Shown: positions 2,079-60,909 of the stretch, in pieces
Layout of the letters: each line of letters begins with the position of its first letter
Position numbering within the stretch: the first letter of the stretch is position 1
Origin: Nymphaea colorata
Lineage: Eukaryota > Streptophyta > Magnoliopsida > Nymphaeales > Nymphaeaceae
DNA: 64,000 nt
Direction of reading: 5' to 3'
Assembly: GCF_008831285.2 (NCBI RefSeq)
Contig: NC_045139.1
Location: forward strand, 8,836,204 to 8,900,203
Position numbers and translations under genes: made by a program
The notes under the pieces: model-generated
What the model was told of the DNA's origin: nothing
The model's input: the letters and a program-made list of their open reading frames with translations, nothing else
The model's database searches: none

Positions 2079-5000
2079 TTAAAGAATCAAATGAAGAATG
2101 ATAATTAGGAATAGTATTAATGGTGATCGAAGCGAATCAAGGTTACAGGCCAAAGAAATGTTATGGGCTCCAACAGAATAAACAGCTCCAGTCTTAGAAT
2201 CTTTCACTTTGATGCTGGTCGAGCCTGAAAAGGTCAAAAGAAATGTTTCATCTTAAAAGAAATGAAGCCAAAATACTTTGACTGTGAAGCTTTTAGATAC
2301 ATGGCAGAAACAGAGCTTCTCCAGAACAAGCAGTTACTATGTGTATCCAATCAATTTGGATTATAAGATGGTATTACTGCATTTCTACAGTTATTATGAG
2401 GAAAACCTGCATTTCTCATTAGTTGCAAACCCACACCCACGTAATTTCCTTTTCCAGGAACTCAAATCCCAACATGTTATACAAATCCAATACAAACTTT
2501 TTAATAGGTTTTGTTTTTTTTATTTGGTATCTTGTGTGTTTACCTTTTTACTATTGAATAATAGTGATAACATACCCAAGACAACCTTGACTAAAATTTG
2601 GAAAAGTTGACATATATTGAGACACAAGAAAATCACTTACAATCATAGTCAGTCCATCCGATGGCTTGGTTCTCAAGATCATAAAAAACCAATCTATTAG
2701 CCAAAACCAAATCTGCATGAACAATGAAAAAAAGTAAAATAATATGATTAGGAAAGCATAAATGCATTGACAGATAATGACAATTTTTTACTTTATTCGT
2801 ATACGGTCCAAGGAATTGAACTCTTGACCTCCTTCAACTTGAAGGTCTTAAGCCAACCAATACATCCAGGTAAACAAACACATGGTGGAAAGCTATTTAG
2901 GGCCTCACTATCAGTCTCAACTCCTGGTAAAGTAAAATATCAGGCTAAACCAGACAGAAGGATCTTATAGACCACATTAATTTCTGGGAAATATACATAC
3001 TGGTAAAGAACCATGTCAAAAGTACAGCCTTCATGACCTTTAAATAGTTCATAGATGAAATGGCAACACAGCTTATCACTTATGCACCTGTCAGTTTTGC
3101 ATGTGCAATAGGAGAGCATAGAAAACTGTTTCTGGACCCTCTAGGCCATCATAAAGAGTAGATTTAGCTGCTGGAATAAGGTTGCACGTGCAGTAGTGAA
3201 GAGTTTGAAGGGAGAAAAAATAAAGACAACAAGAAGCAAAGAAGTGGGGAACGAACAAAGGAAGAAAAGTGATGGGAACATGAACAATTAAAAGAAAAAT
3301 GGTCAGAAAATCACACATGAAAAAAAAAACAAATTGGAAATGAATTGGAAGCTAGTTTTACAGGGTTCTATTTGGTCTGGTACCATGTAGACCACCCAAG
3401 TGGTTTTCTGCAAATCCCAACTGATGAAGTGAGTGAGTAGGAAGAAGTGAGGACAAAAGTTTTCAGTAAAACAACCATAATTTCTATTAATTTTCTTGTA
3501 TGTAGGAACTATAAAAGACAGCCTTACTAAGTAAATGGCAAAACAACATAACAAGGCTAACATTGAAAATTGAGGTATGCAGAGAGAAACATTAAAAGCT
3601 ATTCAACAATCTAAGATTCAAATGATGGACTCATATGAAGAGATCAGAACTAAAATATTATGCTTAGAAGTTTTAGTTTGTCATTAGAAGTTAATTAAAC
3701 CTCATTAACTTGTTCATATTAATATGTGTTATGTTGCTTACTGGTAGGCACTGCCTGCCAAAGTAGTTCACACCAAGCACTAAGAGACACGCACACAAAT
3801 TAGGGTTATCCTGCCCTAATTCTTCATTAACCAGAAAATCATAAGTCGAGTGTTTTACAGCTAGCATTATATATGGGCTGACAGAAATGGATACTCAGTG
3901 ATGGACCCGACCCAAAGATACCCTTATTCAATCGTATACCCTAATACAGACTATTATCATTTAACGGCTCTATCAATCACCCCTCCCTTGCAAGCAACAC
4001 CTTGTCCTCAAGGTGTAACATCTGGAAAATGCTGTTGGAGCTCAGTAGAGTCCTCCCAAGTGGGCAAAGGAAACTCAGGACCTTGCCATTCGATCAGCCA
4101 ATCAGTATTGGAAGTCCCCTTTCCCTTGGTGGACCTTCTCTGCAAAATTCTGAAGGGAGTGACTGCATCCTGTTGGTGTTGGGGTAAATTTACGTTTGCA
4201 GCAGGTGGTGAGACGTCTGGGTAGTGTGGTTTCAGATAGGACAGATGGAACACTGGGTGCACAGTCGAATCCTCTGGCAGCAGTAATTTGTAGGCAACTT
4301 TGCCTATCCTCTGTATAATCTGATAGGCCCAGAATATCGGGCTGAAAGCTTGCTGTTGCCTGTCCCCTTTTCAACAAACCTTCCCTGAGGGATGTGTCTT
4401 CAAATATACCCATTCTCCTATCTTGAAATCCCTCTCTGCGATGCTTATTATGCTGTTGTGCGATCCTATTGTTGGCAGCCGCCAACCTCTCTTTAATCAC
4501 TTTCAGTACATGGTCCCTGGTGAGCAGCTGTAGTTCAACCTCCTCTAATTGTTGTGACTGATTTTGAAAGCGTCATAAATCAAGGGGTTTCCTGCCATAT
4601 ACGATTTCAAAAGGAGACATTTTAATAGCAGTGTGTGGGGCTGTATTTTAGGTGAATTCAGTCCAAGACAGAAATTGTGTCCAATTGAGGGGTTGAGCCT
4701 CCACATAGCACCTTAGATATGTTCTTAAGGTTCTGATAATTGCCTCCGTTTGACCATCCATTTGATGATGGTAGGCTGTGCTCATCTTAAGTTGGGTACC
4801 CTGCAGTTTAAAATAACTTTGCCAAAACTTACTCAAGAATAGTGAGTCCCTATCACTTACTATTGAGCGTGGCATTCCATGAAGCTTTCCCACCTGCTCT
4901 TGGAAGGCTTTGGCTACATCCGGTGCCGTGAAAGGATGGGCTAGGGCAATAAAATGTGCATATTTGGATAGCCGATCAACCACCACCAGAATGACAGACT

Positions 5001-8000
5001 TTCCCTTCGACTTTGGCAGTCCTATATAATCCACGGATAAATCTTCCCAAATGCAAGCTGAAATTGGAAGTGGCTGAAGCAAGCCTGCTGGTTTCAACGT
5101 TTCATACTTATGTTTTTGGCAAATGAGACAAGCACGCACATAATCCCTGATTTCCCTTTTCATGCCAGGCCAATAAAAGGTTCTTCTAACCCTCCGATAT
5201 GTGTTTTCCACCCCTCAGTGACCAGCCTCTTTGCTGTCATGGAAATTTACAATTGTGGTCTCTGTAAGACCAGATTCAGGGGAACCATAGATCCGCCCTT
5301 TGTAATGTAAGTAGGGTTGCCTCCACTTATAACCATATGTCTGCGTCTATGAGGTTTGTAGCCTCTATTTATTTCCTGCACAGATTTAGCCTGCTGATAT
5401 GCTAATTCTAACTGAGCCCAAAGGTCTGCTGTGGGAAGCAACAGTGTATTCAATTGGATATGTAGTTCCTCACCTTGCTGATCCTGCCCAAACTGCCTTG
5501 ACAGTCCGTCTGCAACCACGTTTTCAGGTCCTTTCTTGTACAATATTTCAAAATCATAGCCCAACAGTTTAATTACCCATTTCTATTGTGTAGGGTTCAA
5601 TACTTTCTGCTGCAGGTAGTGTTTTAAGTTGCGGTGGTCTGTGTAAATCTGAAGTCATTTCCCCACTAGGTAATAGTGTCATTTGCAGACTGCTAACAAT
5701 CAGTTCTCTCTCACAAACTGATTTCCCATTGAACCTTTCACCCATGGCCTTGATGAAGAATGCTAGAGGGTTGCCTTCTTGAATCAATACCACACCCACC
5801 CCTTGCTCTGATGCGTCAGTCTCAAGCTTGAAGGCTTTCTTGAAGTCAGGTAATGCTAGGATTGGAGCACTTATTATGGCCTACTTAAGTCTTTCAAATG
5901 CTTCCTTGCCCTCCTCCTTCCACTCAAATTGCTTTTTCTTGAGTATCTTCGTAAATCTGAAGTCGTTTCCCCACTACGTAAGAGTGTCATTTGCGGACTG
6001 CTAGGACAATAGCAATCAGTTCTCTCTCATAAACTGATTTCCCTTTGAACCCTTCACCCATGGCCTTGATGAAGAATGCTAGAGGGTAGCCTTCTTGAAT
6101 CAATACTGCACTCACCCCTTGCTCTGATGTGTCAGTCTCAAGCTTGAAGGCCTTCTGAAGTCGGGTAGTGCTAGAATTGGAGCACTTATTATGGCTGACT
6201 TAAGTCTTTTGAATGCTTCCTTCCCCTCTTTCCACTCAAATTGGTTTTTCTTGAGCATCTTCGTAAGGGGCGCAGCTATGAGTCCAAAACTCTGCACAAA
6301 TCAACGATAGTACCCTGCAAGCCCAAAGAAGGCCCGCAGGCCTTTTATGTCTTTGGGCGGCTGCCACTCCTTAATGGCTGCCAACTTGTCTTCTTCCATG
6401 TGTACCCCATTAGTTGATATAACGTGACCCAAATAAGTGATATGGTCACTGCCGAATAGACATTTAGAAGCCTTGTCCTGCAGTTTATGCGCTCTCAACC
6501 TGCTAAGAACTTCCTTTAGCTGCTGCACATGTTCCTGGATGTTAGAACTATAAATTAATATATCATCAAAAAACACCAAGACAAACATTCTCAAACCAGG
6601 GCAGAATATCTCATTCAAGAGGGCTTGGAAAGTTGCTGGTGCGTTGGTAAGCCCAAAGGGCATAACCCTAAATTCGTAATGACCTTCATGGGTTTGGAAG
6701 GCTGTTTTAGGAATGTCTTGGGGAGACATCCTAATTTGATGATATCCTGCTTGGAGATCAAGTTTAGAAAATACGTAGCCCCTTCTATTTCATCCAATAG
6801 TTCTTCCACAACCGGAATTGGATATCGATTCTTGATGATTATTGTGTTCAACCCCCTATAATCCACACAAAATCTCCATAACCCATCCTTCTTTTTTTAC
6901 CAATATCGAGGGGGAAGAGTATGGACTTCTGCTGGGCTGAATTACTCCCTATGAAAGCATTTGTTTCACCAATTGTTCAATGGACTCCTTCTGAGTATAG
7001 CTGTACCTTTATTGTCTAAAGTTAACTGGTTTTGACCCTGGTTCCACTGCTACTTTTGATGATCTAGGCTTCTTCTTGGGGGTAACCAGGTTCAGCAAAA
7101 ATATCAGTAAATCCCTGTAGAAGTGGTTTTAAACTTTTAATGGCTGTGGCATGCCATCCTACGAGTCCTCATTCTGTTCTGATGTCCCCACTATTAACAT
7201 GAGTAGAATATGTAACCCTGCTGCTGTGCTTTCAGTTTTGGTTGTCAATGTATCCAGCTGACCCTTTGGGCTGGTCAGTGTTGCAGCCTATGTTGTTCTT
7301 CACCTCCATCACCACCAAATCTCATTTTCATTGCCATGAAATACCATTCAACCCATCCCAGCTGCTTCAACCACTGAATACCCAAAACCAAGTCTGCTTC
7401 TCCCATCGCAAGTGGGTGAAGTTCTACCTGATATTTCTGTCCTTGGATTTCCACCAGTTCTTGTGGGCATTTGCCTTTACATTCAAGGGAATCACCATTC
7501 CCCACCAGCACTTTAAAACCCTGTGTCCTATGGTTTTACATCCACAAATCTTGGTTGTGTGCTCGTTCACGAAATTATGTGTGGAACCCGTGTCCACTAA
7601 TATGCTAACCCTGCATCCTTTTAATTTCCCTTATACACGCATCACTTGTGGTGCTTCCTCTCCCGCCAGGGCATGAAAAGATATTTCCGGCAGATTGGTT
7701 TGTTCAACCCAGTTCTATTCTTCCCCCTTTTCCACTGGCTCCTCTCCTTCTTCCTGCACTTCGCTGGACAGTTCTTCCACTAAGTACATGTGCACTTTTT
7801 TACACGCGAGGCTTGGAGACCACCTCTCGTCGCATTGGAAGCACAACCCCTTGCATCTCCTGTCCTTAATCTGGTCTGGGCTCAGCCTTCTCACTATTCC
7901 TTGCTGTTTTTCTGCGCTGACTCTACCCGCTGGTGGCTCTTATGCCTCCTTACTCAGGTTCTGCATTTTCCATATAGGGGCTTTACTCTGACGACCCTCT

Positions 8001-11000: not shown

Positions 11001-14000
11001 CTAAAAGACTAAACCATGTTTTCTATGAAGAATTTATTATTTTTATTTTTTTCTGATTTTTTATGTTTTTTTTTAATTTTTTCTGATTTATTTTTTTTTT
11101 TTAAATTTACGATACGGTTACGATACGTTCTGATACGGCGTATCTTAAAGTCCGACCGCTACGCTTTTTACAACATTGGTCCAAACAGTGAGTATTCATT
11201 CTCAAACAAGCCAAGCTTGAGGTTGGCAGGTTACAAGCCAAGGCTGAGTAACCTTAAGCTCATATGCCCCCATGTCACAAAATTTGTGTAAAATAATTAG
11301 GACCCAGAAATCTCTCTCTCTTCCCCCAACCAACCCCCCACCAACCACCCCCCCAACCCTCACATACATACACATAGCTGTTCTTCTTCTCGGCATGTCT
11401 AGTGAACTTTTTATGGAACACTTATACGAACTTGCGAAGCATGTTCCTGAGCCAGCTTGAACCTCAGCTCAATTAATTTAATTTTATGAGACTAACTGAG
11501 AGGAGCTTGGCTTCTAAAGCTCGATTCAAGCTCAAACTGAGTTTGAGCATTCTAATATATGATTCAACCTGAGTTTGAGCTAGTTCAGCTCAAGCCCAAC
11601 TCAACTAGTGCAGCCCCACTAGACACTAGTAATAGCATAGATCCACATTAGTATATAACTTGAATATCTCATCACTCTGTCTTCAAGAACATGCTAATTT
11701 GAAATTTTGGAAGAACAAATTGTGGCTGGGTTCAATTCATGTAGGGTTAATCAACATATGAATAGGAAACATTACATCAGAATGATTAGTCACTAGACTG
11801 GCAGCAACTGTGCAGAATGTGTAAGATAAACTTGAACCAGTTCATCGACATTACCACCATTTCATAACTTTATGCAAACAGCTGTGCTACTGCTGCCCTT
11901 AAATAAATAAAAAGTCTGAGAGAAGAATACTTACACCTAGTCGATAAAGATACTGATGTGGATAAACCTTCATGCTAACGGAATTTTCAAAATAGAATGT
12001 GACGTACGGAAAGGAATCATTAACACTGCAGTAGAATCATGGATCAGAAAATTAATGTCTAAGATACAGGGCTTCCACATTCATCAAAGAAAAAGTTTCC
12101 ACAAATATCACCCACAGGTTAGGGGTTCTGCTTTTAGTTGGCTGTCAAGAGGCTCATAAAGTACCTGCCCTTTAGTTGGCCAAGCACCCATGGCGCTCAC
12201 TTATCTAGGTTAACTGGGCAGACTACACATACAGAATCAATATCAAGAAGTCAGCAGTTGTTCAAAATATTTACCTTCCAGTGAACTGAAAGCAGCTTGA
12301 CCCTTGAACTGTAAAATATTCTACGCGGGGTCCATTTGACCGAATCTGAGAAATAACACAGGAGCAAGCAATTACCACACCAAAGAGAACCAAGTAAACA
12401 CTCAGAAAGTCCTACTCACTGCATTCATCAAAGGACTGTAGATATCCTCTGGAATATAGGCCAAAGTAGTCCCACTGTCTATGATTGCTCCCATCCTATC
12501 TTGCGCTGCAGCTCCAGAATCAGCCACACCTGAAGGAAGTTGAAGCATTACCCCGCCAACATCAATTCCCTTCATGTACACGTTATAATGTGACCTATGG
12601 TGAAGATTAGTTAGTGATAATTCAAGAAATCACCAGTCTCAATTTATATGGAAAGGCATAATAAAACTGTTCAACGCAAAAGTATTTTAAGACGAGGAGG
12701 CCAAATCACAAATTTTTTGCATACTCAGTTTTCACTAATTCCCAAAAGCTTTCTCTTTTCAACATAATTCCCCCCAAAAGCTTTATCATTTCAACATAAC
12801 AAATTCTGGAAATTAATCTGATACTAACTTGACATTGACATTTATACACAGAAATAATATTTTTTCTTAATTTTCGCATTTCTTACATTCCATTCCTCAG
12901 AAGCTTTATCTTTTCAACATAAAAGCTTCTGGAAGATAATGTGATACATATATTAACTTTTATATTCCTTTGTGTAATTTTATTTTTCATTGTGTTTCTG
13001 CTTTTTAAATTTTAAACCTTTAAGTGAACATGCAACTTTTTCATATTTGTAGTTGTTGACGTTCCTAAAAATTTTCCTTCACCCAAGAAATCTAGATGCC
13101 TGTCCGACTGCTGTCATAAAACGGTGGCAGCACAGTGAACTTTGCCCTTTCTTTAGGGGCACATTTGGATGAAAAGCAAAAGAAACAAATGGTTCCGTAA
13201 AATCATACCAGAGAGAGAGAGAGAGAGATCACTGCTAGGGCATTGAGAGGGGTAATATATCTTATTTTTATTTGTAGCTTACTTAAGTTAATGGGTAACT
13301 TTAGTAGCTTAGATAGTCTTAAACATGAAGATGTAAGTGCCCTAACATCCAAAATGAAAGGGAAGGTTTTGGGAAAACCCAAAGGCAAGGAGGAACTTAG
13401 AAATATGCCCACAAGAAAGGGAACAATGTGGAAAACTGCCTATTATAATTGACCATAAGAAAAGCATGATAAGTTGTTCAACCAAAGGTTTTCTCTAGAT
13501 GCAACAGAGAACCACCCATCCAATACAACGATTCATTATGAATTTTCAGCATCTTAATTCCTCAACTCTTTGTTCAATGTAGAAATAAGAAGCTTGCTAA
13601 GACTATATTTTTAATCTTCAAGCAATTACTAGTTCCATTGTTGAGGAACAAATTTTCATATCAGTCATCGAGATTAGCTGATTAATAATTTTATACCTTG
13701 AGCAACCGAATCTGTCAGAACACCCCAAAAGACAAAGAAGCTCAGAGCACCCCAAAGGACAAAGAAGTATCAGGAATGTGTTCACACCTATTGCATAGTT
13801 CCCCATTTACCTTGCTAAACATGACCTTTGAGGAAAACTTTTTCATATCAGTCATTGTGATTAGCTGATTAATGATTTTGTACCTTGAGCAACCTAATCT
13901 GACAGAACATCCCAAAAGACAAAGAAGCTCAGCACACCCCAAAGGACAAAGAAGCATCATGAATGTGTTCACACCTATTGCAAATTCGTCGAATCACTCA

Positions 14001-14099
14001 AACAAATAACAGTTACCCATGGGGCCAAAATAAATCAACCAATTTCAATCAATGGAGTGCTACCAAAAAATACTTATAATCTCTCTCTCTCTCTCTCCC

Positions 14100-14141
<42 letters not shown>

Positions 14142-17100
14142 AATATTATATATATATATATATACACACACATTGGAAATAAAAAGTAACATGACCCAAA
14201 TCCAGTTCTAATGAGGATAGTGCAATATAAATAATGTTTATATAAAATTCGCTAACAATAGAAATTCTCTGACCCAAATATCATAACCTGGATGAAAACC
14301 ATCAATAACTAAAACAACTACTATTTAGTATTTTCCATGCTCCTCAACAAATTAGAAAGAATTAACATACTCATTAGCGACCATGGGAGTTGTCTTCACA
14401 TGGGGATACACCACTTGTCCAATAGCAAAAATTCCACCACCATTAATCCCATCCAAGCAATGGGCAAACATCTTGTCAACTTCTCCAGCAGAAGCTAATT
14501 GAGAAATCACAGAACTATCCGACTGCCCAAAGCCAATGATCCCATCTAGTGCCTGCCTAGTGTCATCAAGTTGCCCAGTTTGACGAACAGAGCATCTGCA
14601 CAAGTATCACAAAAATATATTATTGATTCAGTAACTTTTTGAAACAAATTAACTAGTAGAATCAAACAAATGAAATAAAATTCCAATCTTCTGTCCAGAC
14701 ACATGACTGGAAATTCAGGTGAATGTGGTTACCAGCTTATGTATGAATCACAATAAATAATTATCTATGCTACAAACAGCATATTGCCAAATACAGACAA
14801 AAACACAAGTGGCTCAGCTCATATGTGACCAACTGTGCAAGATGACTAGATATTTAGCTTGGCAAGAAAGAAGCCCATGGGACTGAATATCAGGATACTA
14901 CAACTTTAAAGTTAAATTACAAATTAGGGTCAGGAACCTAAGACAAGAAGGAAGATGAGAAAAATGACACATTCCAAAGAAGAAATGTTGGAGACTGAGA
15001 GGAAAGAACTAGTCACAGTGAAGATTCCATTGAGTTTCCCATGCAGGGATGCATGGCACTGATGCTAAAGGATGCAGGCAGGCCTACTTAACATAATAAA
15101 ACCCCAAAGAGAAAAACTAATATTTTCATTTTGGGATCTTGGTACCAAGTACCAACCTAAAATAGACTGAGTGAATAAACACATACGAATGAAACAGTTG
15201 AGAAAACCATAAGTGTTATGACTGTATAGAACCAAAGAAGGAATGCTGAACATTGAGAGGAAAGAACTAGCCATAATAAAGATTTTATTTGAGCTTCTTA
15301 TCCAGGGATATGTGGCACCAATGCTAGACAGGGTGTGAGCAGGCCTACTTGACCTAATAATGACCCCAAACAAAAGCTAAAATTTTCATTTTGGGATTTC
15401 AGCATCAACATAAAATATAATGAATGAATAAATCCATATGAATGAAACAGTTGAGAAAACCAAAAAAATAGTTTGACTCTATACAACATCAAGAAGGCAA
15501 GAAAAAAGAAAAATCTAGTGAAGAAAAGTACCCAGGTGCTCAGTTAAACATGAAGTAAATCCTAGGTGCCAGGCTAGTGCTTAGGGGAAAACCTGCCATG
15601 TATATTAAGTAATTATTTGATTTATAAACATGATTACAAGGTGTCCAGTTCCCTACAAATAAATGCACAAAATTTTGCATGATATTATTCTTCATTCAAA
15701 TGAAGACGTGAGGATCAGCAAAATCCAATATCTCGTAAAATACAAGACACCAAGCAAAGAATAGCAAGTTCATGAAACTTCCAATTGGGAAACAAAAGGT
15801 AATCCAAACCAAAGAAAACATGAGGTTCCTCCAGCTCGCTGCCAAAGCAGAGATGAGGTTCCTCCAGCTAGTGATTGCTCAAAGAGCCAGCAATCATGAA
15901 GCATATTCAAATCTCCATATTGATGAGTTGCATCCATGTTCAGTTATTTAGTGAAAACACTTCTATAGATGTATATTCCATGTTTGACATATGTCCTCAC
16001 CAACCATCAGGCTTCAATACAAAAGTACCCATCACAACACCTCTTTCTACGATTGTTTTCCAAAGCAAAATTAGTCAATCATGTTGATCATAAATTTATG
16101 GCACGTGAAACAGCACCTTAAAGTGTCAAAACTACAGCTTAACATCAAAGCAAATGTCAAGGTCTTTTCTTTTATTTTTATTAACCTCAAGGATTTAAGA
16201 TAGCACATTCCTAGTATAAAAACTACTTTTATGTTATTAGCTCGTATTATTAGCATCAAACAGTTACATGGGGAACTTACCCAAACACCACGCTTGCATT
16301 GACAGAGCGTGTTTGCAAATTGCCAATAACTTGGTTGTACTGTAAGAAATCCTTTATGAAGTAACCCATACTTGTGCTACCATCCCCGTATTGCAAATAA
16401 TATTGGCAGGGGAGAGCAGGAGTGCAGCTCGAAAGATGACCCCTATAAAGCGTTGAACAAAAATCATCCCTACATGAAACCAAAGACCCGCTGCTGGACC
16501 CACTTGGATCATAAAGAGTCAACTCCAACTGTATGAAAAGCATTTATAATGAACTTCAGAACAGCCGAAAAGCAATTATAAACTATAACAAATCCAGAAA
16601 TACAGACAATTTTGTTTATCATTCTGATTACAGTCGGCACATGTACATGAATTTGCAATATGCAAATCCTGCTCTAGAATGCATCGTCCATATCTAAACT
16701 GATGATAGGCATGGAGATTCCGACACCACCAGATAGACAAGAACTAAACAGGTAGCTCTTCGTACGTTAACTTAAATGTCAAACCTCACGATCTGCATGG
16801 GTGCAAAATATCGTGAAATAAACTACCAGGAGAAAACAGAGCAGTCGAAATAAAAAATTAAATAACTTACTCCAAGGCCGCTCTTTTTAGGACAACCCTG
16901 ACATTGAACGCAATTCACCCAAAGCTGATCGCTGCCTGTATCAACCTGCACGTAGTACTTCTTCGATGGGTTGCCAAGCCAAATTTCAGTATAATACAGC
17001 CTAGCGACAACAAATGCCGATCAAAAAACCAAAACTACAATAAAAAACAAAAAAGAAAGAAAAAGCATGCATAAAGAAATCGTAATCCGACGCAAAGCCT

Positions 17101-18897: not shown

Positions 18898-21456
18898 TCA
18901 ACTTCTTACTGCTTCAAGTGATGCCAAAAGTTCATCAAACTTTGCCCCCACCACCTCTTTCACAACCATACCGTCCTTCAGGATCTTGAAGGTTGGAACT
19001 ACTGCTACGCCCAACCCTTTGGCCAGAGGCTGCAAACAGAAATGCACATCAAGTTACCAATGACAGAAATAAATACATGATGTGTCCAAAATAGATTGTT
19101 CACAATAAATTAGCGAGAAGGCAGACATGCAAGCAAAGAGCATCCATTGAACAGGAAAAAGATGGGGTGCTTGCAGTTTTTCCCGGTTGATTTGTTAGGG
19201 AGAGGGATCAAAGTCAAGGTGAAAGCTAAATCACTCTGCTGAGTGAGGACCAGGTGCCTAACATAGATGTTCTGTGGTCATCACGTTTACAACAGTTATG
19301 GATGCACATTGGAAGACACAAAGAAGCAGGGTCTCCGGGAAGATCTGCAACCCAGCACCAAAACAAAAAAAAAAGTTCTGCGTGTACCACCAACATTTCA
19401 ATAACTAAGCAATTTGAACTGTTCTGCAATATCACCTGCACTAAGTATGAAATATAATCAGCTATGACAGGCGCAATTGACTGGACTGACTCAGGCATTG
19501 TTCACATCGAATTAGTAGCAGATGTAGTCAATGTTCATGAGACTCTAAACTTGGAGCAACGCCAGAATTCTGAGCTACGCTTAGAAACTACAATAAACAG
19601 ACAGAAATAAGAAATTATCCTGACCTTGTTCTCTTCATTGCAGTCAAGCTTTAGAAAGACAACGTCCAGACATTTCCCTGACAGTTTCTCGAATTTAGGG
19701 GCCATCACCTTACACGGACCACACCTGTAAATACCAACTCTACAATAAGTACCAAATATAAATGATGCGCGGCTTCATTAGATATTGTTACCAAGCTTCG
19801 TTTTGAAGTCTACCAGATTTTTTTATATAGAAAGGATAGGTAGCCTGCAAACATCAATTGATCTGCTCTGAATGTCTGATTTCATATGTCAGAAAAATAA
19901 CGAGGTAGAAGGTCTGAAAGTGCCATCGATTGAAAGATTGACAAAGTATTGAATTTACTAACTGAACTAAACCTAAAATCCTACAAACATATCCTAATAA
20001 GCTTTCTTTAGTTCAAAACGTTAATATCACAATATATGTGAAATGATAACGAAATAAAGATATTGCAATACCGTTATAGTGTTCACAGTTTTCGTGCTTT
20101 TTCCTCTTCTTACGTAGATAATTTTTTTTTTATCAATCTCCAATTTTCTGCTACTAAAATATTCTTTTTATAATTTATTTATTTTAAGGATGTTTAACAA
20201 GAAACTCCGCAGGCTTTGTAGAAAATACAAATATGTACTAAAAAATTACCTCATATGTGGCATTCCTTCGTAAATTATCGCTATAATTTGTATTCGTGAA
20301 TCGTGACATACATACTTTGAGGAGTTCAATGCACAACGTTGCACAAACTAAGCATCTTGGGGAATGTTAACTGGATGATTCAAAAAAGCAAAATTTTGAG
20401 GTTTCTTTGTACGACTTCCTGCTTTAGCATGCCATACTTACCTACATTAATAGGTGATTTTGATTTTTCCTCCATTCGAGAATGGCAGGTTTTCATCATT
20501 CTCGTTCAAGAGCAGAACTGGTTTTTAGTGCGTTAAAGAAACAGCAGGTGAGGACTTCAAGAGGACATAAAGATCTGTTCTTCCGATAATATTTCCAAAC
20601 GATAAATTAAATATACTGATACTTGCATAAAAGTGAAACCCATACTTGGTCAATATCACAGGATACAACTTCTTTTTTGCTTGTCAGATCTTCAAATGTT
20701 GTCTATCTTGTTTAACTTTCCCGGCCTTCTACATGTGTAAATTGTAGAATGACACTTGGTGGCACCCCAAACTGTTTTCAGACGGGATATATAGAATCCT
20801 CTGAAATTGAAGAGGGATCGTCTATCATCCGAAAATATGATCCTCAGCTTTTTAACAACACTACTCCAGCAAGGATGAAGAGCAGGAAGCATGTGAGCAT
20901 GTGGATCATATAAAAACTATGCTTCTTTGTTAGGGAACGAGCGCAATTGGCCGGAAGAGTCCCTTAATTGAGCAGCGCTTGTAAGTCTATATACGAGTAG
21001 AGAAACGACGAAGATAATCGAGGGAACAGAAATAATATGTGAAAGCTCGTCTGAAACAAAGGAATTCCAAACGAGAACATCAAAAGACGAAAAGGAGAGA
21101 TCGTTTTCCGATTACCTTTGAGTGTACATATACAGAACAACGATCTTCCCCTCCGCGGCATTTACGATCGGCCAGAACGTGTCCCCATTCACCTCCGTCA
21201 CCACTCCGGTGGCCGCCGCGGCTCCGGCAACATCCTGGTTGGCGGATGCCAGAACCCTAGCTCCTCTTCTCTTCTCGGTCCTGCACCCCATCCGAACCCG
21301 AGTGCAACCAGTGGCCTGATTCCTCCTTCCACTCGGATGATCAATGGACAGTCTGTGCTGGACAAAGGGGAAAGAAGAATTCAATTGCATGCCACGCGAA
21401 GTCATCTGACAGGGACTCATAGACGAAGGAGAAATGATCGGAATCCTCAGAGCCAT
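18898..21456 (-). CDS. TRXF: Thioredoxin f-type, plastid, with altered active-site surroundings
   Basis: Plastid thioredoxin of the f class, which normally passes electrons from ferredoxin-thioredoxin reductase to Calvin-cycle and other stromal enzymes. Exons on the minus strand: 21116-21456, 19625-19724, 18898-19029. Introns are GT-AG and the product is 190 aa. Seen: Ser/Arg-rich transit peptide over about the first 75 residues; VTEVNGDTFWPIV at the start of the mature domain; CGPCKVMAPKF; the f-class third cysteine in VFLKLDCNEENKPLAK; the cis-Pro loop VVPTFKILKDG; the end VVKEVVGAKFDELL. Odd: the redox motif is RCGPC, not WCGPC, because the codon split between exons 1 and 2 is AG plus G. 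The Asp found five residues before that Trp in known thioredoxins is Tyr here (VVLYMYTQR). Cys replaces the usual Tyr in SGKCLDVVF, and Ala the usual Arg before VVPTF. The reading frame is intact. It may be a divergent paralogue or a copy under relaxed constraint. Confidence 0.92.
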
Positions 21457-25053: not shown

Positions 25054-28000
25054 ATGGCGTCTTCGTCTTCGATCACGGCGGCATCTGCCGCGCCGGTGGC
25101 TGCCAAGACGTCTCGACTCGGAGCTCAGTGCCACCTCGTTCCCTCGAATCTGTCGTTCCGGCCTTCCCCGAGGCCGAATCTCGCCGTCGCCGCGTCAACT
25201 TTTTATTCTCAGGCTAGTATTTTCGTTGCATTGGGTTCTGATCGGTTCGTGAAAGGATTGCATTAGCTGCATTGAGGAAGCCGCCTTCTTAAATTTAGTT
25301 GGTTTTAGGCTTTCATCATGGTAGAAGAGCTCTTCTTTTGCCGGATCTAAGAGGGAAAAGCAGAGAGAAAGTATGTAGTTTGTACATTTGCTACGACGTG
25401 TATTTGCAAGATGAGAGTGAGTATAACATGATGGAGCTCAAAGAAGCTTCCTTGTCTTTTCCCCTACTCTATGCGGGCATGGAGTTACTTTATCCCCTGT
25501 GGATGTGGGTACTTAGCTTTTTAGTGGCCCCATTTGGATTACCGACGAACCGCATCGAAGTGGGAACAGATAGATCCTCTTCGGCGTGCAACCTTTTCTG
25601 AATTTGGCACTGTTTCATTCGCCTCGGAAGTCGTACTCAACTAGTGGTACTGCTTCACATTGTGTCTTTTCCTTTTCCTGATTCAATGTGAAAGGAAAAG
25701 ATTGGGACTGGACAAGGAAAGAGAAAAATACTGTAAGTACTCCTAAACATGCACAGAAATACGGTGGTTCCCCTCAGTGATGCCGCAAACTGAAGGCTAT
25801 TGCAGTTAGTCAGTAATGCTCGCCACGCATGTGCCTGCACACCATGTGCCCCCATTTCTACATCTAAACTAATTTATGTTCATTTTCATCTTGCAGGGTT
25901 CCCTTCAGCATCGATCTACTATTATGAAATCACAGTTGAATGAGGTGATCGCTTCTGCAGCTAACTGTGTATGATTTTTTTACAACAAACTGACTAGTTT
26001 TGATCTTCTAAGGTTCCTGTTGAAGGATCTTCCCACCCGTCGAACTCTTCTGCAGATAACTCAAGTGTGGCCAAGCCTCAAAAGGAGGATATAGAATCAG
26101 AAAAACAGAGTGTTTCAACTGCTTCTGTATCAGACTCATCAATAACCGAGTTTATGGCTGAAGTAGCTAACCTTGTCAAGTAATAAGCCGTTGCTTCATT
26201 TATTGTTGAATAATGGATTGGACGTACTTTTGTTTCTGGATGCATTTGCGTTTTCTCAAACTATTCTTACTGTGGACGAAACCAAGTGTTTTTCTCCCCC
26301 TCTTTCGAAGAATCTCTAATATGGTTGAAGCTTGATTGAGGTTGCTAATGTTGTGTTTCTAGGCTGGTTGACTCCAGAGATATTGTAGAGCTGCAGTTAA
26401 AGCAACTTGACTGTGAGCTTGTTATCAGAAAAAAAGAAGCTTTGCCGCAGCCACCATCTCCAGCTCCAATGGTCATGATGCAGCCACCCGCTCCACAGCC
26501 CATGGCTTCAACTCAACCGCCTCCTTCTCCAGTGGCTACCCCAGCTCCTGCCCCCTCAGCAATCCCAGCTCTTCCACCTCCTGCTGCCAAATCAAGCCGC
26601 TCATCTCATCCACCACTTAAGTGCCCTATGGCTGGAACATTTTACCGAAGCCCAGGACCTGGGGAGCCACCATTTGTAAAGGTTGCTTCTTCAAACTTTG
26701 TATTATCTCTTAGCTTGTTTGTTCTGCATAATTGTTTTCTCTGTTTTTATGACGGCATTTTTCTTATGCAGGTTGGGGACAAGGTTAAGAAAGGGCAGGT
26801 TCTCTGCATTGTTGAGGCAATGAAGCTGATGAATGAGATTGAAGTAAGCGCTGAAACTTATTACCTATTGTCCTTTGTCAATTCCTCTTGCCTTTAAATT
26901 TCATCTCTCTCTTGAGAGTTGAGAGCAACGTTTGTTGGAAAGCTTGAAGTTGCTTCCCAAAGACACCGTATGCCTACCTTGTTTGAGGTTGCCAATAATT
27001 TGTTTGCTTAAGAGTAAATTGGTATCAGGTGAGCAGTTCCTAAGATAACCACAAGTTACCATTATCTTTCAGTTAGAGTATCTATAGATGGAAGGAGACT
27101 TTGAGCTGACAACCTGGCTGAAGATAGTCAGACTAGGAATACTATTTATATCTGCATGTTTAGTTTCAACCCGCAAGAACACTTGTATTCTTTGGATGCC
27201 AGCATTCTCCGATCAACCATGCTATCAATGGGACAGAAAATCCAGGAACACTGTTTTAAGTAAAAATTGCACTAAAAAAAGCGATAGAAACATAAAAAAC
27301 AGGTCAGCCGAATAAAGCTGGGAAAAATGTGTCTTTTGAAAAGGATGCCAAAACAAAAAAGCACGAAAAAAACACATCTTGTCACATTTTTCATAATTTT
27401 TTTCATTTTTGATTGCTGAATTTTCCCCTTCTTTTTTGTGTTTTATTTTCTAGAATTTCTTTTTAAAATTTTTTAAAACAATTTGCTGAGATTTTTCTGA
27501 GAAAAATAACTTTTCTGTATTATACCCAACAAAAACATTGCTGTTTAAAACACATAAAGAATATTTGTGATTCTGATTCCAACTATGAGCTATCACATTA
27601 GAGCTTTTCTCTATTAAGTCTGCAGCAACATGTTTTTTTTTATTATAAACAATGTCAAAGTAGCTTAGATTGGACAATCATTGGCTAAGATGGCATCACA
27701 TACGGCTATCCAAATGGCATGCGCTGGTGTCTAAGATGATAGGACAAACTCATTGGAGGGTGGAAGGTGGGTCAGGGGAAGGAAGGAGTGAATTCATTTT
27801 TAGTCGGTGGCAGGGGGTGAACTGTGGTTGGTATATGTGTTACCTTGCCGATATGGTTATTTCAAAGATGGTTCTTTCCAAGTCATTGTTCCCTGTCCTT
27901 AAACCATCCCCAATCAAGTGATCAAACCTCAGAAATAATTTGATGTGTGACATGGACATAGTTTATTTGACTAGAAACCTTTTGGAGCACCTTATTTCAA

Positions 28001-33764: not shown

Positions 33765-35042
33765 GTAAACTCCCCATTCCTCCCTCTTTATCTTGTTTTT
33801 TCAGCAGCATCCTAGAAAGCCCCTCATTTCCAGCAACTTGTTTCGGTGGAGGCAGGAGGCTGGTTCATTTCTCAGCGATTCTTCCATCCGTACATGATGG
33901 GCACTTATATTTTCTTCAATTTGTTTTGAGAAGATGACCCTCACTTGCTTATACGACAGGCCTATTTTCTCTAGATCGTATAGCTACAAAAACCAGGCAG
34001 ACAACTTGCATATAAGTTTATGATTCCAGAAACCGGACTTAGACAGATAGAAAGGATTAGGATTTCTTACTGTTTTGATAGGTTATGGTGATTGTTCTCC
34101 AGATTGAGAATGTAAATGTAATCTGCCCTTTTCTGTCCAATACCCTTTACAAAGGAGAGCAATACCTGTACAGGAGAATCTAGGGGCTTAATTTTTATTG
34201 GTCTTAAGAAGCTTACCTTAAAGCCCACTAGCTCCTTTCTGTAATTGGAAAAGGCACGAAAAAAGATTAATCTCAGAAAACGAGAAACGTAGGTGTGCAT
34301 TTAAACAGGCAAGCAGTCAGACATATTGTTTTGAACCATGGATTTGTGCCAAGGCAGAGCTTGGAAAGGAAAATGATCCTCCGTTTGCAAGCTATGGGGG
34401 ATGAATAGGCTTTATATACCTGCAATGCTATTGTACCGTGCAACGAAGAGTCCTTTCTCTCCGGTCATTTCATAGTAGGTTGCTCCCTTGATCTTGTAGG
34501 CCTCAAGTTTACTCTCATCTTCATTTCTATATGCGAACAAGTCCCTCGGTGAATTTCTAAATCTCTATTTATGTTTAACTAGAGATGCCATATTGACGGT
34601 TATAGCTATTTGATAGTTGTTTTCTGTTTTTTTTTTCTTGCTATTCTTTACTACGGTAAATAGCCTATCTGAATATGAAGGTACTGCCATCTTGTCTCTC
34701 AATTTGTTGTTTTTGAAGTATCAGATATTTTATGTCAGTTTTTCTACAGAGGATAAAGCCATCAAACCTGTTGCATATAAGTGGTTAGGATCACTGTGTA
34801 ATGGGTACCCACTTTTTTTTTTTTTGAGAAAAATTCCTCAGGTGCCAAAAACCAAGGAAATTTTCTTCCTCTCCAGCTAACGTGCCTCGGGATTTGGAAA
34901 AGGTGTAACTTTCTCCTGTTGTACAATCTTCTACAATGTTCCTGGATTTTTTTTTTCTAGAATTTTTTTTTCCAGGAAGAAAATTTCAAGGCCATCAAAA
35001 ACTACTCGAAACTGGTTCTGTCTTCAGTATAATTTCCCACTC

Positions 35043-35045
<3 letters not shown>

Positions 35046-35115
<70 letters not shown>
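35046..35115. repeat. (AT)n microsatellite, about 70 bp
   Basis: Uninterrupted AT repeat in the leader intron of the bS18 gene, about 50 bases before its acceptor. Confidence 0.95.
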
Positions 35116-35117
<2 letters not shown>

Positions 35118-35176
35118 GGCTTCAGTTTTTCTTGTCCTAATGGTTACAGTCTAATCTGTTCTTTTTAGGCTCAGGA

Positions 35177-41100: not shown

Positions 41101-41590
41101 ATTTGATTTGGCATCTGGAGAGGAGTCCCAGTTGAAGAAGCCATGTATTTGAAGCTTGTTTTAGTATTTTGATTGGCAGAATGAAGTCAATCTGTGCTTA
41201 CATACTCATAAACCCTTTTGCAGAATGTCAGATTCCTTTCCAATTTCATCACTGAAGCTGGAATTATTATCAAAAGGAGCAAGGTCAGCTACCCAAATAC
41301 TTGGTTAGCAGGAAAACATGTAATAAAGTGATCTTAGTTGTGTATCTGAAGTACACTTTTTTCTCTCTTTCATCTCCTTGCTGCAGACTGGTATTAGTGC
41401 CAAGGCACAGAGGCGTGTTGCTCGTGAGATCAAGACAGCTCGAGCTTTTGGCTTGATGCCCTTCACTACAATGGGAACTAAACCATTTGTTTTTGGAAAG
41501 AGCGTAGAAGATCTTGATGAAGATTATGATTTCGAGTACTTCGGAGGAAACTTTGTTGCTGGTTCTGGAAAGGGGGAAGCTGCGACCTGA
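35177..41590 (+). CDS. bS18-type ribosomal protein, probably mitochondrial
   Basis: Small-subunit ribosomal protein of the bacterial S18 family, nuclear-encoded and organelle-targeted. Coding exons: 35177-35276, 38088-38455, 40357-40452, 41224-41283, 41387-41590. They join in frame with GT-AG introns to 276 codons including stop. Seen: an N-terminal Arg/Ser-rich, acid-poor presequence (MRLSSMMLLRWSKCLRQSD); a long plant-specific middle region with SAYDFTQRIFGGFGD and FYQKLDRLEKARGRAGFG; then the S18 core NVRFLSNFITEAGIIIKRSK and TGISAKAQRRVAREIKTARA, ending FGLMPFT. The C-terminal DLDEDYDFEYF tail is acidic. The presequence favours mitochondria, but plastid targeting is not excluded. Intron 35277-38087 carries two hAT relics. 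Confidence 0.9.
36019..36733. mobile_element. Non-autonomous hAT-like element 3, in the bS18 intron
   Basis: 715 bp. Terminal inverted repeats: left CTATGTTGTCAAGG, right end reversed CTATGTTGTTAAGG. Flanking octamers CGAGTGTG and CCAGTGCG match at 6 of 8 positions, a decayed target duplication. The ends are rich in GCCTAGGCG-type motifs and the middle is AT-rich, including (AT)n at 36455-36475. No transposase. Confidence 0.68.
37175..37923. mobile_element. Non-autonomous hAT element 2, in the same bS18 intron
   Basis: 749 bp with a perfect 8-bp target duplication ATGGAAAT (37167-37174 and 37924-37931). Termini: left CAATGTTGTCACTG, right end reversed CAGTGTTATCTGTA. Like element 1 it carries subterminal GTATCGTA/TACGATAC-type motifs at both ends (37200-37265; 37780-37915), and its termini match those of element 1. 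No transposase. Confidence 0.86.
38780..39081. mobile_element. MITE-like foldback element in a bS18 intron
   Basis: Two inverted arms of about 65 bases, 38803-38866 and 39006-39072, sharing TATGGACCAC and ATCTCAAAAGTG with intervening mismatches. The outer ends are flanked by CTATAAA on both sides (38773-38779 and 39082-39088). Non-coding. Confidence 0.62.
39805..39948. mobile_element. Short MITE-like element, 144 bp
   Basis: Left end GTGAACTAATGTGAACTGCC and reversed right end GTAAACTAATGTGAACTGCC, inverted repeats of 20 bases with one mismatch. Flanked by CAAT on both sides. Lies in the bS18 intron before the exon at 40357. Confidence 0.7.
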
Positions 41591-46878: not shown

Positions 46879-48234
46879 AAATTGGTGAATACCATATCGC
46901 TTGGGTAAAAGATAAAAACTAGGCCTCTTAAATTTATATTAAAAAGTGTTTTAAACAAGGCTAATCAACTAATGTGTTTATAAGTACTAAGTTTGTATAG
47001 ATATCATATTGTAGTTCAAGTTATTTTGTAAAAAAAAAAACTTTTCTATTATCAAAATTTTGATGTTGTAAGAGCAGTACATTTTTTTTATCATTAACAA
47101 AATTTTATAAAAATAAAAATGACTAACTTAATGTATCTTACTCATCAAATCATTTTTAAGATCTTGACTATAAGGTTAGATTATAGGAAAGGTACTTGAA
47201 TAATTGATTTTAACTATAAGTTTAGATTTATGTGCTGCACAAATGGCATGGTTTTTGCTAAAGTCTGATCCTTCGGTTGATGCCTGGTTTCCGTCCCTTA
47301 GCATTTACATTCTCTAGGCAGTGCCTCCATGCATACTCTAATGTCTTCTCATGGACTTTAGCTCGCACATCCCTAACATCATTTCCCATGCAGCTTCCAA
47401 ATACACCATAACTGCATTAATGTGATATTAGTCCTTTCAACTTTTGCCATTCTAAACAATGATTTTGCTTCTGCTTGTTGTTGACTGTGAGAAAAACAAA
47501 AAATTGTGCATTCCATCCTATCTTAGATTGGAGAAAGGTCAAGTTTACTCGGAAAATAAGTTAGTGGCTTGGATTTCGTAATCGTTTGTTCAAGGAACTG
47601 TAAAGAATATTTTATGTATGCGTCTTGCCTTTATCATATCTACAGATATAAATGATATATAGGCTTTTGATGTTTTCTCATTTTAGATGGACAAGAAACA
47701 CGGCATCATGGGTATTGAACTAATCATTGTTATCATTATTATTTAATAATAATAATTGTTATTAATCTTCTTAAAGGTCTTAAATTCAATCTGCTCGCCA
47801 AATGGTTCACAGAGTTCTTGTTGGAGATACTCCAAAGAGGTCGAAACCCTACACCCTATTTCCCTTACCTCTAGGGTTCAAAGTGGCTTCGGAACCTAGG
47901 TGGAGAGCTAGGATACGTGTTATTAGAGTGTTGCACATATTTACAGTCTAGAAAAAAACTTTTACTGACCTACCAATCCAACAATTAAGACTTTTGTTGG
48001 CAAACCATATAATTTAGTAGACATATTTATATTTGAAAATTTTGTTGCTGCTTGTCTAAATTTATTATCTGCTTAAATTTGTTTCTTTGGATGTCTTTCC
48101 TACGAGTGAGATCAGGTTACATGTTATGGCCATGACAAGGGGCCATGTGTTATGAGCAAAACGACTAGAATGCCAAAGATTGCCATATAAGGTTAAAATT
48201 GATATGGTAAAAAAAAAAAACCCTATAAAATGAC

Positions 48235-49083
48235 TGAAAAGCCCCTAAGGTTAAATACGGTTTTGCATGTTAGCCGCATAACATGGAAATCGTTGTTCTC
48301 CTTACAACTCTACCTAACCCCAACTTGTCAATTGTCAACTGAAAAGGAAGAAGGAAAAAAAAAAAAAGAACTTCTACATAGAGATTCCACAAAACAATAC
48401 ATACAAGACAGGATGGGCGTCTGCCTCGGTGGGAACACGAACATTGTTTCACTGTTAATGACAAAATGGGCCCAACCCTAAAGTCTTCTTTTAATCTTCA
48501 TTTTCACACACTGTGAGATCGAAGATACCTTGAAGAGGCCAAAGCCCTTCATCCTTTTCCCGTGCTTTTAGAATCTAACACTGATTCGGGAGTGAAGAGC
48601 GGAACATCTGTCAACTAGAGTGTTGTGTATTTATCATTTGCAGAACATCTGAAAAGCCCCTCAAGTTAAATACAGTTTTGCATGTTAGCCGCATAACATG
48701 GAAATCGATCTCCTTACAACTCTACCTAACCCCAACTTGTCAATTGTTAACTGAAAAGGAAGAAGAAGGAAAAAAAACACTTCTACACAGAGATTCCACA
48801 AAACAATACATACAAGACCAGATGGGCATCTGCCTCGGTGGGAACACGAACATTGTTTCACTGTTAATGACAAAATGGACCACCCCTGGTCATTTTGGTG
48901 GGCCCAACCCTAAAGTCTTCTTCTAATCTTCATTTTCACATACTGGGTGAGATTGAAGATACCCTGAAGAGGCCAAAGCCCTTCATCCTTTTTTCCTGCT
49001 TCTAAAATCTAGCATTGATTCGGGAGTGGAGAGCGGAATATTTGTGAACTAAAGTGTTGTGTATTTACCATTTGCAGTTCAGA
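48235..49083. repeat. Tandem duplication (about 415-430 bp, two copies)
   Basis: GAAAAGCCCCT starts at 48236 and 48651. Both copies carry TTTTGCATGTTAGCCGCATA, CTACCTAACCCCAACTTGTC, GCCTCGGTGGGAACACGAAC and end near GTATTTA(T/C)CATTTGCAG. Copy 2 has an extra ACCACCCCTGGTCATTTTGG-type insertion. A weaker relative of the right part lies at about 47760-47950. Confidence 0.93.
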
Positions 49084-49099
49084 TGAGTAGTGTCTATGG

Positions 49100-51330
49100 A
49101 AATCATCGTCGAATCCATATTGTCAGGTGAATCAAACCCGTGCACCTTGATCTTCCTTTGAAAATTTTACGAAAACAAACTCAATCAACTTTTACTGGGG
49201 TAACAAAAGCACGCTGAATCAGACCATGGTAACTACTAATTCCTAACTACTAAATCCTTGTTTATCTACCAAACGAAAGACCTATGTACATACACGAGGT
49301 TTGCTAAGAGTCTGGTATAGGTGAGATTAGTTGCTGTTTCCGTGATTGATTTAATTCAGATCCAGACCTAACTCATCAGCCCGACATGTAAGAACATCAA
49401 TTATGGGTTTCATGATGGATCCACTCCAGATCCGCATCCTACTCTTGAATTGACAAGTAACCCTAAGGAATTCAAAAAAAAAAAAAAGCAGAAGCGTCTT
49501 CCCAACTGGGACATCAATTAGGGGCAGGGTCAAGGGAGGCCCAGCTAGGGCTCTGCCCCCCTTCTTTTTTTTTTTTTTTTTTTTTTAATTTTACATTTTT
49601 TAAAATTATCTTATATAAAGATTTTGAAAAATGATATTTTTATTCATGTCAAAATCTTGAAACTATAATTAGGCCTCTCTCATGAAACTTCCTGGTTTCG
49701 GAACAGCAGTTTTTTCTTGTCATGTAATGTTGCCGGAGGGCCAACCCCAATGGGGAACCCAATTTGAGCTTCGATGACTGAGGTTAGTGAAATGGGCAAA
49801 GATTCTCGGATCTAGAAATTTACCCGGTGAAGGGGGACAAATACGTAAATTTCTAGTTGAGAAATATGAAAGAATACATCGCAAAAAGTGCATAATGTTT
49901 GGGTAAATTGCAGTTCAGGGCCCAAGTTTTAAAAGTAAATACATAAAGGCTCAACTTGTGATAAGTTCTTAGAAGCCGTCAAGAGAATGTTAACTTTTCA
50001 TATAAGATGATAGGAAGGCCTCTTCTAAGAACAAAAATGTTTTTCTTCAGCCAAGAGAAGAGTGGTTTTCTGAAATACCTTTTGAAAATAAACAAAGGTT
50101 TCACTTAAGAAAACTCATTTGATTCCTTTTCTCTTTCTTTTAAAGTATTTCGGTCTCTTAGAAATCAACTTGGTTTATATCTTTGAAACTTAATCTCCAT
50201 CTTTGTTCTCCTGCTTAAATGATTCCTATTAATGTATGGAAATTACTTTTTTTTTTTTTTTTCATGTGTATAGTATTGGGGCCCGTCAAACGGGCCATAA
50301 CTTCCGGGCGACCGCCGTTGGAGCACAGGGACAGGACAAACGAGTCATGGGACTCGTCAATTTTCCTGTAATTTTTCATTAAGAATGGTATGGAACAAGG
50401 ACGCGACGTGAAAGCAGACTGGAGTGTTGTTACGACAGAGCGTGCATTGGAGGTGACGTCCGAGCGGATTTTATTGCTGCCCACAAGAGATCTTTGTCTT
50501 GCACCGGTACTGCCTTGGCCAAGCATGGCAGGACGTCACGAGTCCGAACAGCAATATATATCTGTATCTTTTGTCATAAGCTGAAAAGAAGGTTTCATGA
50601 AGGGTTTTGCCAATCACATATAGTTTCGTTGGCTCAAAAGAGATTGTGCTTATATTTGCATTAAGTTCATGACATAAACATTCATGACGTACCTCACTAA
50701 AAGTATCAGTCACACTATTTTTACTGACATTTTTCTCAATCAGTAAAATGCTTTCTTTTTTTTTTAATGGTATGTTCTTAAAATAATTCGACTGTTTTTA
50801 TAAGCATGAACCAAGTCCAATGTGATAAGGTTGGTTCGTAGAATGGAAATTAGAACTAAAAGGCGTAATTAATCTCACCTGAACCTCATTGCTCTTACCT
50901 TTGCAGTCTGTTGCATTCTGGCCTGACTACACTACAAAATCCCTCTTTTCTTTTCTTTTCTTTCTTTGATCTAGCTTCGGATTTCATAGGAATCGTGGAC
51001 AGTATATTGGCAGGCCCGCTCTTGCAAAATCCTGAACTCTTCTTCTTGTTCTTTTATCTAATAAATGGGAGGTAGCCTGTTTTGTGGCGAGGAACTTTGG
51101 CCATGTGGGTACAAGTCTTGTTCATAAATAGTGACTCTAGTTTTTTAGAGTCACTCAGCCATCTAATTTGTACATTTTAATCAAACATGATGAACGATTA
51201 AGAGAAAAATAAAGAAAAAAGATGATGAACATTTTTGTCATCTAATATTAGTTTACTCTTCTCAACAATCCATCTGCTTTAACTGGGTGGCCTTAGTTAG
51301 GTGGCTAGGTGACACTATATAACTATAATC
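49100..51330. other. Intergenic DNA with one GC-rich island
   Basis: Poly-T at 49564-49587. The island 50278-50545 starts GGGGCCCGTCAAACGGGCC and is GC-rich compared with its flanks; no coding match recognised. The remainder is AT-rich without a gene. Confidence 0.45.
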
Positions 51331-51338
51331 ACCGTTCA

Positions 51339-51456
<118 letters not shown>

Positions 51457-51459
51457 TGC

Positions 51460-54339: not shown

Positions 54340-56050
54340 TCAATTCAGAAATGTCTTTGTTGGAGCCACCTTTTGGTTGTATTAGGAAAAAGTTCCCCGA
54401 TGTTTTAAACTTTGCTAAAACAACTCGCACTTTTTCCAACAAAACTGATTTATAGAATCCCATTTTTATGATCCTTCCTTAATTTTAAAAAACTGCATAG
54501 CTTAAATTAAATCGTAATAGTGCCTCTTCGTTCACATTTTATGGTGGTGTATGTAATTCTTTTTTGACTTAATGACTATGAAAAAAGTTTTTTTTTTAAG
54601 CAGACTTCAAAATACTTTACAAGGACCACATTTTGCGGTTTCATGGACGCCTGATCTTGGAATAAAAGTTAATAAAAGTAACGTATTAATGAGAACCGAC
54701 GGAACCAGCAAGTGAGTAATCCTCCTTTCGTGCGTGCAGCGTTGGCCGCAACACATGCCGTGCTTTTCCTTTGCTGCACTGCTGATGAGACAGAGAACGA
54801 CCTGCTATTTGATTTTAAAAGAGTCACCCACTAAGTGGTTTAACTTGCTTTCAAGCCTAATGATAATTTTTCTTGATTAACTTAGTATCACCAAAGGCAG
54901 TAAGACGAGAATACGAAGAGTGTTAAAGTTGAAAAAGAAATGAGATCTGGAACCATATGTGTACCTAAAGTGCAAAATGGTCTTGTGGTTAGCCAACAAA
55001 GAGATGAAATGGGAACTTTGTTTGAGAGTGCCCGTGACATCAATCCATTGTAATCCATTGTGTTATTAAAAAGACAGAGAGAAGAGGGAGGAAACACCGA
55101 TATGCAAGTTGAAGAACAGCAGATTGAAGCACTAAAAACAGACCTGGTATCCAAAGAAGATGAGGAGATGCTTTAAGATGAAATATTCCTACTATTCATC
55201 CAAAAAATATAAACTGGGTAGCTGCTTATCCTTGTTCAATTGAAGACCCAGAATCCAGTCTCAGTTATGTTGTTCAGTATCCTGAGTTTTTCACAACATT
55301 GCCTGCCTAAGGTTTGCTTGTGAGAGTTCACCTGCGTTATCTTAAAAACATCTTATTCTAAATTCTCATTTGAGTCTAATCCTAGTAGATCAGGGTGAGC
55401 CACCAGGTACCATCCGAATGGAAGAGTGTAAAATCATGGTAGAATGAACATAAATTTGAAGTGGACTTGACTGAGAAATTTTCTGATCCGAATCTGGATT
55501 CAGCTTGACAGTACAGATCTACTGACTTCTGATGGATGTAGGTTTCACCTCAATGGTACAGGATCAGTTTTTGTAGGCCTGTAGCCCTGCTCAGTGGATG
55601 GAAACCGAATAAAGGAGAAAAGGGGCAGCTAAGTATTGACAGATGCTATCGAGAAAAACCTCTCTATCCCTCTCTGTGTGAAAGTGTATCAGGATACATG
55701 TGTAGAGAGAAAGAGGACAAAGGCAATGAAATTACTAAAGGCGATATGTGCAAGCATAACCATACCCCCTCTCACTCTCTCTGAAGTGCATTATTATGGA
55801 TGTGCTGTGGGTCTGCCACACATGGTGCCAAAGACAAAACCATAATTATCAACCAACCCCCTCCCGTTTCACGTGCTTCTTCCATGTCCTCCTCTCAATT
55901 ATGCAGTGTAAAGAAAAACACATGAGCCAGTTCTCACCTCCCTCATTGGCAACTGGCATTCCACCCAGAACACAAGAACTGCTCTGGACTCTCTGACCCA
56001 TCTTCCCAAAACCCCCCAATCAACCTCCATCCCCCTCATTTCACCCCTCC
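54340..56050. other. Upstream region of the DUF538 gene
   Basis: No other gene recognised. 55940-56190 is strongly C/T-rich, including (CT)n at 56082-56097, and is the likely core promoter and leader. Confidence 0.45.

Positions 56051-60813: not shown

Positions 60814-60817
<4 letters not shown>

Positions 60818-60909
<92 letters not shown>
60818..60909. repeat. (AT)n microsatellite, about 92 bp
   Basis: Longest uninterrupted AT repeat in the window. Confidence 0.96.

Follow-up and report, generated by a model that had tools for sequence, protein, structure and literature searches.

A tryptophan directly before the catalytic CGPC motif and a buried aspartate are among the most constant features of thioredoxins, and the f-type thioredoxins of plants tie light to the Calvin cycle. 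In a window of 64,000 nucleotides (the whole stretch of DNA analysed here), which appears to come from a flowering plant, an intact thioredoxin f gene (TRXF) is found in which both residues have been replaced. The question raised by this locus is whether such a gene encodes a thioredoxin f of altered specificity, an ordinary one whose lineage tolerates the changes, or a copy in the early stages of decay.

TRXF occupies three exons on the minus strand (21456-18898; Table 1), with a coding sequence of 573 nt that specifies 190 amino acids and contains no internal stops. Its GC content at third codon positions is 57%, compared with 38% GC across the window, and approximately 80 residues, rich in Ser and Arg and poor in acidic residues as judged by eye, stand ahead of the domain. 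An origin as a retrocopy is ruled out by the introns. The full protein scores 67.3 bits against the Pfam Thioredoxin profile (PF00085, cut-off 23.5), and the best 5 of 225 matched PDB sequences, among the 60 listed, are all Trx f, namely four plant chains (E values of 3.7e-45 to 9.3e-43) followed by Chlamydomonas TRXf2 (CrTRXf2; 4.8e-22). An earlier note on this DNA had named the gene a thioredoxin f, and these matches bear it out; the span that it gave, 19625..21456, leaves out exon 3, which holds the cis-Pro loop. In a collection of genome contigs 16 bacterial loci were matched, of which 7 have an in-frame CxxC, each preceded by Trp, a proportion that is not a fair frequency as one of the two search patterns spanned the Trp position. 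No relatives were matched in a collection of viral contigs.

Residue 114 is assembled across intron 1 and is Arg, so that the active site reads RCGPC, with both cysteines, the glycine and the proline present and the tryptophan gone. The earlier note had derived this Arg from the junction 21116/19724 and had reported Tyr at the position equivalent to E. coli Asp26, and both observations are confirmed. Alternative junctions were scanned by altering a single end per trial, using in-frame GT or GC donors up to 80 nt from the end of exon 1 and, around the start of exon 2, AG acceptors as far as 90 nt upstream and 60 nt downstream, and none that is plausible gives back Trp. The sole option that places Trp before CGPC is a GC donor (CTG/GCCGAT) at 21172, which is implausible and costs the domain 19 residues; two upstream acceptors produce in-frame inserts and leave the Arg in place. 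When four Trx f proteins were compared to the window by tblastn, no second TRXF copy, duplicate or alternative exon 1, or tandem TRXF was found. A short match to CGPCK at 54639-54610 lies outside any recognisable gene and was taken as chance.

Table 1. Coordinates in the window of the TRXF gene, its altered codons and the neighbouring genes.
Feature	Position	Strand	Detail
TRXF exon 1	21116..21456	-	ATG, putative plastid transit peptide, domain up to TQ, AG of codon 114; open frame
Intron 1	19725..21115	-	1391 nt, GT..AG; GT donor at 21115; interrupts codon 114 after base 2
TRXF exon 2	19625..19724	-	Final base of codon 114 (Arg), CGPC, C132, third Cys C142
Intron 2	19030..19624	-	595 nt, GT..AG
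TRXF exon 3	18898..19029	-	cis-Pro loop VVPTF, C-terminal part, TGA stop
Codon 91, GGG (Gly) for Lys of Arabidopsis, spinach and Chlamydomonas Trx f (CrTRXf2 K78, signature lysine)	21184..21186	-	
Codon 109, TAT (Tyr) for buried Asp (E. coli Asp26 position)	21130..21132	-	From alignment
Codon 114, AGG (Arg) for active-site Trp	21117-21116 (AG) + 19724 (G)	-	From spliced frame
Codon 132, TGT (Cys) for Tyr of Arabidopsis and spinach (Arg in Chlamydomonas)	19670..19672	-	From alignment
Codon 156, GCA (Ala) for Arg of plant Trx f, Lys K143 of CrTRXf2 (signature lysine)	19003..19005	-	Directly before cis-Pro loop
Aspartyl protease gene, downstream of TRXF, same strand	12405..16942	-	Matches to TAXi_N (two ORF fragments) and TAXi_C (one); extent approximate
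BCCP gene (plastid acetyl-CoA carboxylase subunit), upstream, head to head with TRXF	25054..26897	+	Extent approximate

Among 66 matched PDB sequences, alignments were obtained for five chains representing three proteins, Arabidopsis Trx f2, spinach Trx f (three constructs) and Chlamydomonas TRXf2, and Trp and Asp are present in all five. In its domain length, CGPC motif, C142 and P159 the protein resembles plant Trx f (Arabidopsis Trx f2, PDB 7c2b; spinach, PDB 1f9m, 1faa and 2pu9), from which it differs by Arg for Trp, Tyr for Asp, Cys for Tyr, Gly for a crown Lys and Ala for Arg. Chlamydomonas TRXf2 (PDB 6i1c) belongs to the same class, with 39 of 98 aligned residues identical, but keeps the Trp, the Asp and all six lysines regarded as a signature of the f-type. 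The extra Cys was described in the earlier note as standing where Tyr is usual, which is correct for both plants but not for Chlamydomonas. The same note considered the rest of the protein to be well kept, and this holds for both CGPC cysteines, for C142, which aligns with the third Cys conserved in f-type thioredoxins such as CrTRXf2, and for the cis-Pro P159 in VVPTF; K91G, R156A and other changes near the active site were not listed there.

The six signature lysines of CrTRXf2 (K78, K106, K126, K134, K143 and K164) lie in a positively charged crown (PMC11922929), and when the numbering of that article is carried onto the alignment, by an offset worked out in this analysis, four of the six are kept, with Gly at K78 and Ala at K143. 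The K143 position is Arg in both plant references, so that plants do not strictly have Lys there. Among the remaining crown positions listed in that article, K114, N130 and N133 are conserved, whereas Glu replaces K131 (Gln in both plant references), and the net charge of the 108-residue domain, +1, is identical to that of both plant references. Active-site variants are known among plant thioredoxins, including atypical forms with WCRKC or WCRVC (PMC12294300) and rice OsTrx20 with WCTPC (PMC5396813); as described in those sources, however, they alter the residues between the cysteines and keep the Trp, whereas the present protein keeps CGPC and has lost the Trp. A literature search for words beginning with RCGPC together with thioredoxin gave no match.

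The genes on either side place TRXF in a recognisable setting. The aspartyl protease gene has both of its catalytic motifs (DTGS at 16942 and DSGT at 12479), and the BCCP gene, whose first exon was placed by eye as it has no Pfam match, has the biotinylation motif EAMKLMNE. The Arabidopsis genes are At3g02730 for Trx f1 and At5g16400 for Trx f2 (PMC10663110); At3g02740 encodes an aspartic protease (PMC2551616, PMC3957024) and At5g16390 is BCCP1 (PMC11926652). The order aspartyl protease, TRXF, BCCP thus corresponds to the neighbour of Trx f1 on one side and that of Trx f2 on the other, adjacency in Arabidopsis being taken from consecutive gene numbers only, and the window carries together both neighbours, of which each Arabidopsis copy retains one. 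Because its neighbours match both Arabidopsis loci, this is probably the ancestral place of TRXF, which is the simplest reading, and a dispersed copy is unlikely.

Several other features were noted in the window. A DUF538 protein gene lies at 55912-57006 on the plus strand (111.3 bits); a DUF538 gene presumably also adjoins BCCP1 in Arabidopsis, which would lengthen the synteny. An ORF fragment at 41327-41587 on the plus strand is a homologue of ribosomal protein S18 (PF01084, 31.1 bits). Remains of a Ty3/Gypsy-type retrotransposon occupy 4008-6789 on the minus strand, in which ORF 4648-5214 has Pfam matches to the zinc-binding and core domains of integrase and the ORF at 6301-6789 resembles, by eye, a reverse transcriptase. 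A tandem pair of units at 48234-49086, approximately 410-434 bp apart and 86-94% identical in four pieces, contains no recognised gene, and long (TA)n-type microsatellites, seen as extended Tyr-Ile repeats when translated, lie at 34900-35165, 51265-51626 and 60815-61042.

Studies of other thioredoxins indicate what these replacements might do. In human Trx-1, replacement of Trp31 by Ala weakens the reduction of insulin, and the mutant protein was well expressed, from which the authors inferred an intact fold (PMC11939457). The Trp of B. subtilis TrxA sits in a shallow hydrophobic pocket on the partner chain of the mixed-disulfide dimer (PMC2896474), and WCGPC is among the few residues fully conserved in the Chlamydomonas thioredoxins compared in PMC6316601. 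That article describes a water-bridged bond of the CrTRXf2 Asp at the active site and calls the residue a determinant of the pKa of the resolving cysteine. According to an older study cited in PMC6356897, activity falls drastically when Asp26 and Lys57 of the E. coli protein are mutated, although PMC6356897 also states that in S. aureus Trx the resolving Cys did not appear to depend critically on the Asp for its deprotonation. The expectation of altered behaviour in the earlier note is a reasonable one in the light of the human and E. coli mutants, with no choice made among the three outcomes it put forward, altered specificity, a redox-dead regulator and early decay. Judged from its residues, the product is probably an impaired or changed thioredoxin f.

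Arabidopsis lacking f-type Trx is impaired in photosynthesis, for which, according to PMC4783373, other redox systems do not compensate, but the plants survive and growth is affected under short days only; relaxed constraint is therefore possible, but would come at a cost. Liriodendron is among the plants reported to have a single TRXF (PMC11207409), and so a backup copy cannot be assumed.

The divergence of the protein was compared to that of three reference proteins. Of 108 residues, it shares 77 with Arabidopsis f2 and 74 with spinach f, and these two have 86 in common, a Ser engineered into the Arabidopsis crystal chain being scored as Cys. At sites where the other two plant proteins agree, it has 20 private changes, about twice as many as Arabidopsis (8) and spinach (11), although Arabidopsis and spinach are possibly closer to one another than to this plant, which alone would inflate its count. 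When sites are restricted to those common also to Chlamydomonas f2, the counts are 7, 3 and 3. Changes with a BLOSUM62 score of -2 or lower make up 7 of the 20, as against 1 of 8 in Arabidopsis and 2 of 11 in spinach (p = 0.16, not significant), and a relative-rate test with Chlamydomonas as the outgroup gave 9 changes against 3 in comparison with each plant (p = 0.146, not significant). Gly is the new residue in five of the 20 private changes, replacing K, D, E, E and N. The domain alone gives the lowest Pfam Thioredoxin score, 69.5 bits, against 87.9 for spinach, 81.8 for Chlamydomonas and 79.8 for Arabidopsis (the crystal chain with its C-to-S change), and again the lowest with NCBIfam TIGR01068, 57.3 bits against 71.6, 66.3 and 71.8 for the three controls. 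The cut-off of the latter profile, 96.8, is missed by all three controls as well and so does not discriminate. Private counts and lower profile scores point to eroded constraint, and the formal tests lean the same way but are weak.

Decay that has been entirely free is nevertheless weakly disfavoured as an account of all the private changes. In a neutral simulation of 28 random substitutions, with assumed rates, a transition/transversion choice of 2 and 0.1 indels per substitution, the reading frame stayed open with a probability of 0.045 with indels and 0.45 without them. On these figures, either the loss of constraint is recent or selection still acts on some function.

The explanation that we prefer, and which we consider evenly poised between right and wrong, is that the gene is a positional TRXF orthologue, or one homeologue from a whole-genome duplication, on which constraint has relaxed and whose product is a weakened reductase. 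Loss of the active-site Trp would leave no partner-contacting hydrophobic side chain beside the catalytic disulfide, loss of the buried Asp would remove a group thought to aid deprotonation of the resolving cysteine, and loss of two electropositive crown positions would weaken docking to FBPase-like targets. Because the CGPC pair, the third Cys and the cis-Pro are retained, the protein is predicted to fold and to act as a slow reductase with poor targeting, which may be heading for loss or reuse, and a canonical TRXF would most likely be present elsewhere in the genome. With both catalytic cysteines and the cis-Pro in place, the idea of a redox-dead regulator is not borne out.

The likeliest alternative, which we nonetheless hold to be rather unlikely, is a retained and specialised Trx f, in which the Arg that precedes CGPC and the Tyr that replaces the Asp would retune redox potential, thiol acidity and choice of partner, giving it other targets or a slow reductase or oxidase role. 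The frame has stayed open and the splice ends have remained GT-AG despite many replacements, the catalytic, third-Cys, cis-Pro and most signature-lysine positions are kept, the net charge is that of the plant references, and several changes fall at sites known to lie next to the active site; however, there are changes elsewhere too, and the quarter that are to Gly resemble erosion. A related view, unlikely and slightly more so, is that the Trx f at the ancestral locus has been kept but recast, its RCGPC motif, missing buried Asp, extra Cys and trimmed crown leading to a different redox potential and different partners, in what is perhaps the only f-type thioredoxin of the plant. As between decay and novelty, relaxed constraint or early decay at the ancestral locus is better supported than a new specificity, short of proof and with formal tests that are not significant.

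It is doubtful that this is simply the ordinary Trx f of its lineage, with substitutions that are tolerated and usual targets that are still reduced. Its identity to the Arabidopsis and spinach proteins, the apparently intact fold of the human Trp31 mutant and the seemingly non-critical Asp of S. aureus are consistent with such a view, but Trp and Asp are present in every aligned Trx f chain and WCGPC is reported as invariant among the compared Chlamydomonas proteins. More doubtful still is a sequence artefact or private allele, by which each of the two codons, for Trp and for Asp, would reflect a single-base error or a rare variant carried by the individual sequenced. Each key codon is one base from a Trp or Asp codon, but two transversions in one small gene would be needed, together with 18 more private changes in the domain, and the TRXF exons are free of frame errors and the catalytic or biotinylation motifs of the neighbours are present.

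The consensus for splice donors is CAG/GTAAGT. The weakest proposal, very improbable as an explanation, is that Trp-to-Arg was favoured at the nucleotide level and that Arg is a by-product, since the change, at position -2 of an intron 1 donor that is without G at +5, brings AAG/GTAATC to 6 of 9 matches from 5 of 9 with the Trp codon; but a gain of one base is weak, a Trp codon is normally under stronger constraint, and Tyr109 and the other changes are left unexplained, so that splicing may have eased the replacement and is a lead only.

A natural Trx f that is without both the Trp and the buried Asp, with its frame open and in its old place, would amount to a test in nature, matching that made with laboratory mutants, of the weight of these residues in redox chemistry and target choice. 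A decaying gene would illustrate the ease with which plants part with an f-type copy, and a sole copy would have a bearing on the extent to which Trx f is required.
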